Shown here one piece after another: positions 2,846 to 4,903 of a stretch of 27,479 bases of DNA. Location of the stretch: the IMG/VR virus record IMGVR_UViG_3300037042_002012, positions 1 through 27,479 of that record, one strand, 5' to 3'. The notes under the pieces were generated by a model, which saw only the letters and a list, made by a program, of their open reading frames with translations, did no database searches and had not been told where the DNA came from. How positions within the stretch are numbered: position 1 is the first letter of the stretch; the number at the start of each line of letters is the position of its first letter. This DNA is from a virus. A program made the position numbers and the translations under genes.

Positions 2846-3346
2846 TTATTTTACATCTCCAAATATATTATCAAACTTATTTATTATTTCTTTTTGTTCT
2901 TTATCTAAACTACCTGTAATAACATCTGCAAGCATATCTTGTCTTTCAGCTTTAGTTCCAGTTACAAGTTCTAGTTCAACAGTATCAGTTACAGTTACAG
3001 TTCCAGTTACAGTTCCAGTATGGTTTTCCATATGGGAGTTCATATCTACTTTCATATCTTTTTTCTTACTGAAATTCTTTAATCTATTTTCGGTATAAGA
3101 TTTTCTTCTAATACTTTCTTCTTTCATTTTTAGATTATACCATTTGCCATCTTCTTTGATAAACTTTTCAGCAACCTGTATATCTTCTTCGGTTAATATA
3201 CTTTTCATATCACCATCAGTAAGATATTGATTTTGATGTTGTAAGCATAATAAAGTAATATACTTACCTTTTTGTTCCATTGTCATTGTCATTGTTCCTA
3301 CTAAGAAATCTTTTGTCCATAATAGGACTGCTGGGTCTTTTGCCAT
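2846..3346 (-). CDS. DUF1376-like replication-associated protein (166 aa)
   Basis: The start at 3344-3346 (MAKDPAVLLWTKDFLVGTMT) is preferred to upstream in-frame ATGs because the family signature begins there and promoter B lies upstream of it. Residues 1-90 show the pattern of DUF1376-type phage replisome-organiser proteins: a W-x-x-D-F-L-x-G-T start, M-x-x-EQKGKYI-x-LLCLQHQ helix, then DGKWYN and a basic RKSYTENRLKN segment. Residues 108-131 are a Val/Thr/Gly repeat, probably a flexible linker, before a short charged C-terminal helix (134-160) of the sort that can bind a helicase or polymerase partner. It is shorter than many relatives. The replication role comes from family knowledge, not from catalytic residues. 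Confidence 0.65.
   Translation of the reverse strand: MAKDPAVLLWTKDFLVGTMTMTMEQKGKYITLLCLQHQNQYLTDGDMKSILTEEDIQVAEKFIKEDGKWYNLKMKEESIRRKSYTENRLKNFSKKKDMKVDMNSHMENHTGTVTGTVTVTDTVELELVTGTKAERQDMLADVITGSLDKEQKEIINKFDNIFGDVK
2986..3015 (-). repeat. Hexanucleotide repeat inside the DUF1376-like gene
   Basis: Five consecutive hexamers CAGTT(A/C) on the plus strand; on the coding strand they give an alternating T/V/G linker. The repeat unit is a multiple of three, so gain or loss of units would lengthen or shorten the linker without breaking the frame. Confidence 0.8.
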
Positions 3347-3377
3347 AATTGTTGTTTTTAATTGTTTGTTATAATGT

Positions 3378-3406
3378 AATATACGAAAAGTTTTCCATAA
3401 TACCAA
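3378..3406 (-). promoter_or_regulatory. Promoter B, upstream of the DUF1376-like gene
   Basis: The minus strand reads TTGGTA, 17 nt, TATATT, the same boxes and the same spacing as promoter A. The -10 box ends 31 nt upstream of the DUF1376-like start codon, giving a leader of roughly 25 nt that is A-rich and lacks a Shine-Dalgarno sequence. The two 15-bp palindromes lie 75-120 nt upstream of it. Confidence 0.6.
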
Positions 3407-3480
3407 ATTATGGGTTTCCATATGGTAATAGATATGGTTTCTCATAATAAACATAATATAAAAAAATGTAATATATTGTA

Positions 3481-3495
3481 TTAGAAAATATCTAA
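3481..3495. promoter_or_regulatory. Operator-like palindrome, copy 1
   Basis: TTAGAAAATATCTAA, a perfect TTAGA-N5-TCTAA dyad. An identical 15-mer lies at 3512-3526, 31 bp away centre to centre (about three helical turns), so two dimers of one regulator could sit on the same face of the DNA. Protein binding is inferred. Confidence 0.6.
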
Positions 3496-3511
3496 AAAAA
3501 CCCCCTTTTTG

Positions 3512-3526
3512 TTAGAAAATATCTAA
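3512..3526. promoter_or_regulatory. Operator-like palindrome, copy 2
   Basis: Second identical copy of the TTAGA-N5-TCTAA dyad. An A7-C5-T5 tract separates it from copy 1. Both copies lie between the leftward promoter B and the start of the rightward operon, where a shared regulator could control both directions. Confidence 0.6.
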
Positions 3527-3569
3527 TCCAGGCGTAATCACCTCATTTTCAGACAGTTATATATGGGTT

Positions 3570-3634
3570 TTTTTACCATATTTAACTTATTGCATATCAA
3601 TGAGTTATGCAGACTATGTCATATATGGTAAAAA
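3570..3634. repeat. Separated 12-bp inverted repeat
   Basis: TTTTTACCATAT at 3570-3581 and its exact reverse complement at 3623-3634 flank a 41-bp centre that itself holds the partial palindrome ATTG-CATAT-CAAT (3589-3601). It could be a regulator site pair, a cruciform or part of a replication origin. Symmetry alone does not distinguish these. Confidence 0.55.
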
Positions 3635-3780
3635 CATATGTATAACTAGTTGATACTCAATAAAGAACTTTTGGGTATATGACAAATCGTCTCATATATC
3701 AGTAGGCCAGTATCAAAAATTGTCGTATCTTAGTGTATTGGGTTGAGAGAATGACCCTTCACATATAAAAAATATATAAT

Positions 3781-4059
3781 ATGACAAAAATGACAAACAA
3801 AATGCAAAAACAATTGGAAACAATGTTAAGAGAAAAATTCAATTTTAATCCTGATGGTGAGTTGGATGATGATAAAATTGGATATTCGTGTATCAATGGA
3901 TTTGAATATATGAATTTTATTGATTACGATTTATCTACAAATTTAATTACACATAACATTGTAGATGATAGTGGTAATTTAATAGAAGAAACTACTTACT
4001 TAACATTACAAGATATAGAAAATAAATTGTATAGTCTATTTACAGGAGTCTTAAAATAA
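3781..4059 (+). CDS. First gene of the rightward mini-operon, unknown (92 aa)
   Basis: Unrecognised acidic protein. The N-terminal 20 residues form a basic/amphipathic helix (MTNKMQKQLETMLREKFNF), followed by an acidic, beta-like middle (ELDDDKIGYS, NFIDYDLSTNLITHNIVDDSGN) and a C-terminal helix (LQDIENKLYSLFTGVL). ATGs at codons 1, 4 and 8 are all possible starts; the first is used here. A terminator hairpin follows the stop by about 10 nt, so this gene may yield its own abundant short transcript. It is the first gene expressed to the right of the control region, a position often taken by early host-takeover or regulatory proteins. That role is inferred from position only. Confidence 0.6.
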   Translation: MTKMTNKMQKQLETMLREKFNFNPDGELDDDKIGYSCINGFEYMNFIDYDLSTNLITHNIVDDSGNLIEETTYLTLQDIENKLYSLFTGVLK

Positions 4060-4369: not shown

Positions 4370-4903
4370 ATGAACAAAGAGTTAAAAACAAAAATGGAAT
4401 TAGAAGTATTAAAAACAATTATTTGTGTAAATAAAGAAACTACGCAAGATGAATTATGGTTGCAATCAGATACACCACATATGCACAAACATTTTCTTAA
4501 AAGACTTGATAGAAATATCAAAACATATGTAAAAAGATTAAAAACATTATTAGTCCCAAACAAAGAGTATATTTTAGATTTAGGAAACTCTACTATACCT
4601 TATGATGAAAAAGATAATTTCGTTCAATTCCTTTATGATAATATGGTTTATGCTGACTATAAAGGTGATTATGATGAGTATCATTACGATATTGATAGTT
4701 TTAATAAAACAAATGAGGATGATAAATCAGAAATTATAGAATGTTTACACTTATCTATATTAACTTTTTATGTTGATGATAATGGAAATACAATTATCAA
4801 TGGTTTATTCCATGGATTTGATAGTGAAAAGGTAAATGTAAAAGTAAGTAAGAATATCTTTGAGACTAATTTAATTGCTAACATAAGTTTAGTATCACTA
4901 TAA
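4370..4903 (+). CDS. Unknown protein (177 aa)
   Basis: Unrecognised. The N-terminal 65 residues are helical and basic (ELEVLKTIICVNKETTQDEL; HKHFLKRLDRNIKTYVKRLK), with possible helix-turn-helix spacing but no convincing motif. Residues about 80-125 are acidic and tyrosine-rich (NMVYADYKGDYDEYHYDIDS). The C-terminus (130-177) is beta-like (LTFYVDDNGNTIINGLFHGF). An acidic, aromatic surface of this kind is seen in DNA-mimic and anti-defence proteins, but that is only speculation. The gene shares the operon with the 80-aa protein upstream and a 30-aa peptide 10 nt downstream. Confidence 0.6.
   Translation: MNKELKTKMELEVLKTIICVNKETTQDELWLQSDTPHMHKHFLKRLDRNIKTYVKRLKTLLVPNKEYILDLGNSTIPYDEKDNFVQFLYDNMVYADYKGDYDEYHYDIDSFNKTNEDDKSEIIECLHLSILTFYVDDNGNTIINGLFHGFDSEKVNVKVSKNIFETNLIANISLVSL

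Follow-up and report, generated by a model that had tools for sequence, protein, structure and literature searches.

A paired 15-bp dyad between divergent phage operons: a probable relic of a homing-gene cassette

The locus and its paired 15-mer

The window, i.e., the entire stretch of 27,479 nucleotides analysed here (viral record IMGVR_UViG_3300037042_002012), contains a leftward operon and, beyond an intergenic region of 434 bp, rightward genes. When the first gene of the leftward operon was compared with sequenced phages a single remote match emerged (38%, MT837034). No relatives of the rightward genes at 3781-4059 and 4370-4903 were found among the viral contigs searched, and a DNA search of sequenced phages with the intergenic region gave no match. 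The next gene to the left (2113-2844) combines an endonuclease VII/HNH-like part with a GIY-YIG-like homing endonuclease part, each with a PHROG match; it varies in relatives and has two partial tandem matches in the contig L003.

The features of the intergenic region are collected in Table 1. Most conspicuous is the 15-mer TTAGAAAATATCTAA which occurs twice with a period of 31 bp. The initial annotation had described two identical copies, each a perfect TTAGA-N5-TCTAA dyad, with an A7-C5-T5 tract between them; its coordinates are exact, and the tract is correctly given if one includes both A of TCTAA. No other perfect dyads of this type exist in the window. A third copy was not detected in the window when up to two mismatches were allowed. 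The dyad pattern with two mismatches occurs at chance level (34 seen, 34.1 expected).

Table 1. Features in and next to the intergenic region, with positions in the window
Feature	Positions	Strand	Remarks
First gene of leftward operon	2846..3346	-	weak primosomal / DUF1376-like similarity; the locus was traced in other phages through its relatives
Native promoter/leader of left gene	3347..3474	-	common to phages without pair or homing gene (L003, L004, L085)
TATATTGTATTA, probable deletion junction	3472..3483	+	12 bp exact to homing-gene promoter -7 region of L032 and L161
Copy 1, TTAGAAAATATCTAA	3481..3495	+	orphan counterpart of homing-gene end Leu-Glu-Asn-Ile-stop (4 sense codons + stop)
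16-bp spacer AAAAACCCCCTTTTTG	3496..3511	+	in the alignment, length 16 in 6/7 phages, sequence variable
Copy 2, non-coding 15-mer repeat	3512..3526	+	better conserved than copy 1
GTTATATATGGGTTTTTTTA, counterpart of homing-gene downstream terminator	3556..3575	+	stem decayed in window
Iteron-like TTGAT-N2-TCAAY array and promoter-like TTGTCGTATCTTAG before rightward genes	3580..3733	+	present with and without pair

The longest exact repeat of the intergenic region is 15 nt, compared with a mean of 9.4 and a maximum of 15 in 300 dinucleotide shuffles. Perfect dyads of a 5-5-5 build number six in this region (1.2 expected). Among them is the AAAAA-CCCCC-TTTTT of the spacer; the segment 3469-3483 is built likewise. 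Read from 3469 to 3526 the window consists of four such dyads end to end, TAATATATTGTATTA, TTAGAAAATATCTAA, AAAAACCCCCTTTTT and TTAGAAAATATCTAA.

To the right of the pair lies the iteron-like array, TTGAT-N2-TCAAY followed by n-AGTTA. It occupies 3580-3720 in the window, is seen in several copies in L021 (1080-1480) and recurs in many of these phages, such as L004, L006, L016 and L032. It could be a replication origin or a set of tandem regulator sites.

The IMG/VR collection was scanned for paired dyads with any core. Some TTAGA-N5-TCTAA pair is carried by 54 viral contigs, most of which belong to other families with other spacings and cores and were set aside. The same core at about the same spacing occurs in L016, L032, L021 and L064; L079 was added by a looser scan for the pair and L150 from among 80 relatives collected for the sigma-like gene of the window. 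All these relatives come from uncultured contigs between a few and 34 kb long, and the records closest to the window were possibly excluded. In an alignment of the seven pair-bearing records the 15-mer is close to TTAGAAAWTNTCTAA both times and the spacer sequence is variable. The period is 31 bp in six of seven phages and 32 bp in L021, the dyad arms are unbroken in 12 of 14 copies, and the central base, A or C, is identical between both copies in six phages.

That the pair is a coincidence of AT-rich, low-complexity DNA is thus a negligible prospect. The surroundings do have a GC content of 26%, and other 5-5-5 dyads such as AAAAACCCCCTTTTT lie close by, yet a pair with the same period is kept in six other viral records, and the paired form TTAGAAAWTNTCTAA-N10-24-TTAGAAAWTNTCTAA is rare: it was met at only two places in bacterial and archaeal genomes totalling 257 Gb, both with other spacings. 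A plain 31-bp tandem duplication was rejected as well; in every member the likeness of the copies stops sharply at the 15-mer.

Two further groups of paired dyads came to light in the scan. A separate TTAGA-N5-TCTAA family, mostly in viral contigs of higher GC, has a fixed period of 28 bp (L012:9085, L017:671, L034:1949, L040:1506, L048:3498, L049:8489, L058:2940, L060:3395, L061:3407, L065:10785), and several of its pairs are followed by a TAANNTTGCTC/CCTGC-like string. These 28-bp-period sites look like a genuine operator region. Another widespread paired dyad, TTAGAATNATTCTAA-like, has varying periods and sometimes three or more copies; it occurs in many viral contigs (L013, L014, L020, L023, L025, L029, L035-L038, L041, L043-L046, L050 and others).

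Copy 1 and the 3' end of homing endonuclease genes

A different picture emerges when the sequence to the left of the pair is translated in the related phages. In L016, L032, L079 and L150 an open reading frame reads into copy 1 and stops inside it. Codon by codon copy 1 is TTA GAA AAT CTC TAA, i.e., LENL followed by the stop (CTT replaces CTC in L150), and copy 2 follows beyond the stop codon, 31 bp on. In these four phages the pair and a whole gene thus occur together; in L150 the gene occupies the space between the promoter of the left operon and the pair, and in L016, L032 and L079 it stands next to the pair.

The proteins encoded next to the pair have about 147-149 residues and share 53-65% identity in the pairs compared among the four genes. 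Those of L032 and L016 match the Pfam families PF01541 (GIY-YIG; E-values 2e-8 and 3e-9, respectively) and PF07453 (NUMOD1; 2e-8 and 8e-5), and the L079 and L150 proteins align with them. Judged by these domains, the pair-adjoining genes are predicted to be free-standing GIY-YIG/NUMOD1 homing endonucleases. Neither the tail region of L016, used as a DNA query, nor the homing protein of L150 found a match in sequenced phages.

The window itself has no endonuclease reading frame which ends in copy 1; upstream of it frame 0 runs into several stops within about 12 codons. A remnant of such a frame may be visible in the distant phage L064. Here a replication-type gene has the pair at its 3' end. 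The pair is preceded by an in-frame tail of ten residues, TTIFKDLEII-stop, which resembles the ...KGYIFKSLENL-stop of L016. We read this tail as the presumptive end of another lost copy of the homing gene. In L021 the pair is present and a gene tail is not recognizable. Conversely, a homing gene of the same subfamily in L161 terminates with ...YIFKKV-stop without a pair and has AAAACCCC-TA-TTTTTT after its stop codon; hence the pair module is not obligatory for these genes.

Behind the pair, some 77 bp from where copy 1 starts, L016, L032, L079 and L150 have a TATATATGGG(G)TTTTTT element, a terminator which in L150 and L016 is set in a proper stem (AACCCC..GGGGTT and AACCCA..TGGGTT). Among all loci compared TATATATGGG plus TTTTTT is restricted to the five pair-bearing family members, i.e., to the window and these four phages. 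In the window TAAAAAAACCC (3493-3503) and GGGTTTTTTTA (3565-3575) are fully complementary at a distance of 61 nt. Because the gene-bearing phages have a similar arrangement, the pair spacer may double as the 5' arm of a long terminator.

CTC, the leucine codon of copy 1 which makes the TCTAA arm, is used for 2 of the 686 leucines of the window and not once among the 36 leucines encoded elsewhere in the four homing genes; nevertheless, it is the tail codon in three of these genes, and the fourth has CTT. Four genes are a small sample, and as the tails are related by descent the three CTC are not independent observations, but the rarest codon has persisted through a divergence of the proteins to 53-65% identity. 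Further, family members are 80-98% identical in the pair block, compared with 57-68% in the 130 bp downstream (88% for L032/L079). From codon retention and conservation above the flanks we conclude that the 15-mer is probably constrained at the nucleotide level, as a site or structure which appears tied to the homing gene, not to the flanking operons.

Origin of the pair in the window

The distribution of the pair was examined in 17 related phage records which contain the left-hand gene with 500 bp or more upstream of it, duplicate loci per contig being counted once. Neither the pair nor the homing gene is present in 16 of them, and L150 has both. The presence of the homing gene accordingly varies at one and the same intergenic site. 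Conservation at the same place in related phages, on which the initial annotation had staked its interpretation of the pair as a cooperative operator, is therefore lacking in most relatives. What these relatives do share is the leader of the left gene at 3366-3476, which is well conserved, reads TTTGGTATTATGG...CGTATATTA on the minus strand and has repeated CATATGG motifs. The conserved control region that relatives have for the leftward operon is this leader rather than the two dyads.

To the left of the pair the window is native up to 3474; this flank is common to L003, L004 and L085, all without pair and homing gene. The likeness to the gene-bearing phages starts at 3480/3481, the first base of copy 1. 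Across this border lies TATATTGTATTA, composed of the last nine bases of the flank and the TTA common to copy 1. Its match to the promoter of the homing gene is the longest of its kind among 344 end positions in the intergenic region. When ...TATATTGTA[TTA] of the promoter is joined to [TTA]GAAAATCTCTAA of the gene end the window sequence is obtained save one base.

These junctions, together with the coding identity of copy 1, suggest that the pair probably is the deletion relic of a homing-gene cassette which had entered between the divergent operons and subsequently lost its promoter and gene body. The cassette would have consisted, in this order, of promoter, gene, copy 1 with the stop codon, the 16-bp spacer, the non-coding copy 2 and the terminator. 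Most likely the gene body would have been deleted between the -7 region of the promoter and the last codons at the common TTA. Such an event would leave copy 1 orphaned; the window has kept the two dyads and the terminator segment, not the gene. The deletion model is weakest at its left border: the -33 part of the homing-gene promoter was not found in the window, and thus a second, unexplained junction near 3470 is needed. Also, both copies in the window are perfect and identical, and a decaying relic need not be so. The absence of a gene tail in L021 and the L161 gene without a pair likewise speak against a relic of a cassette.

The same data can be read in the reverse direction. The pair might have existed first, and a homing gene might have inserted directly to its left, with copy 1 supplying the final four codons and the stop of the gene; in that case the window would represent the uninvaded site. 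The native left flank fits this sequence of events, as do the pair of L021 and the L161 gene, which demonstrates that the endonuclease domain can end short of the LENL tail. We consider such an empty site rather unlikely. Because 16 of 17 left-gene records have neither pair nor gene, a gene-free pair would need to be rare and yet the sole invaded allele. Moreover, the window holds the terminator segment of the homing gene and 12 bp of its promoter. For the direction of events we therefore infer a deletion of the cassette rather than an uninvaded site.

Function of the dyads and comparison with known systems

Less certain than the origin of the pair is its function. The initial annotation had proposed that two identical dyads on one face of the helix serve a cooperative repressor or activator. 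This is supported in part, insofar as the pair behaves as a constrained nucleic-acid site with a spacing of 31 bp in six of seven phages and a conservation above that of its flanks. The intact arms, the constant period and the shared central base would suit two dimeric sites for a cooperative phage or host regulator, and the A/T-tract spacer could bend the DNA. An assignment as operator of the flanking operons did not hold up, and we regard it as improbable. The pair is about 100 bp away from the left and about 190 bp from the right promoter, and phages with the same promoters almost all lack it. In four phages copy 1 is coding, and in L064 a comparable promoter array is missing beside the pair. 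Among the neighbouring proteins a clear helix-turn-helix regulator was not seen.

Alternatively, the dyads may act in RNA, a functional reading which is compatible with an origin from a cassette. The 46 nt could fold into a single interrupted hairpin that spans the stop codon in the homing-gene mRNA, with an outer TTAGA/TCTAA stem and an inner TCTAA/TTAGA stem plus A/U pairs, and affect 3'-end stability or termination. On the gene strand all seven phages fold better than shuffled sequences (z -2.0 to -3.9), both changes in L150 keep or add pairs, and one inner-stem pair in L064 is changed on both sides. However, covariation is not significant (125 of 500 shuffles score equally well), spacer pairs are broken in up to three of seven phages, and L021 and L079 fold differently. 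Rfam has no such family and returned sub-threshold chance matches only; furthermore, the fold leaves the likeness of the two unpaired 5-mers unexplained. We consider an RNA element possible, although on the unlikely side. As an intrinsic terminator the pair was rejected because a U-tract after the hairpin is lacking: there is no T-run after 3526 and a terminator scan was silent. A tRNA search found none.

Considering both proposals we infer, with less confidence than for the origin, that selection maintains the 15-mer for the homing gene, be it as a paired recognition site or as a folded 3' element, and not as an operator for the operons on either side. A paired site would perhaps be read by the NUMOD1 part of the endonuclease itself. 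In its extreme form this would amount to an endonuclease family which has its stop codon inside one half of a doubled dyad, has the dyad read by its own DNA-binding domain and so marks its own 3' end. This is a speculation to which we assign a distinctly low probability. If true, the mark would serve autoregulation, guide the edge of gene conversion or help the tail module move to new sites, and the dyad would outlive the gene in genomes that lost it.

With tandem operators of the lambda cI/Cro type the pair shares two similar dyads, their helical phasing and a position between divergent operons. It differs in that it is located away from the promoters, is not conserved with them, has no repressor gene adjacent and possesses one copy which is coding in sister phages. 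What looks like a convincing operator pair between divergent phage operons may be a scar left by a mobile homing gene, and it was the comparison of relatives, not the sequence alone, which exposed it.

Free-standing GIY-YIG genes with their own promoters in intergenic regions are well known from T4 (seg genes; PMC2988022). Like these, the sister-phage gene encodes GIY-YIG and NUMOD1 domains, occupies an intergenic region by itself and varies in presence among phages that are otherwise similar; unlike in T4, the window has no endonuclease reading frame at the pair. Searches of open papers found no description of a dyad repeat which lies at, or overlaps, the stop codon in such a phage gene. The feature of the window hence is probably what remains of an element of known kind whose tail is undescribed. 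Since the tail module is small and recognizable, it could be used to trace lost copies of the homing gene in uncultured phages. It also raises the question of what reads a 15-bp dyad which at the same time supplies the final codons of an endonuclease gene. A precedent is I-TevI, a GIY-YIG endonuclease which doubles as a repressor (PMC10448857). By analogy, a homing endonuclease whose DNA-binding part is separate could attach to a site by its own gene, although here the candidate sites are dyads and are positioned at the 3' end of the gene.
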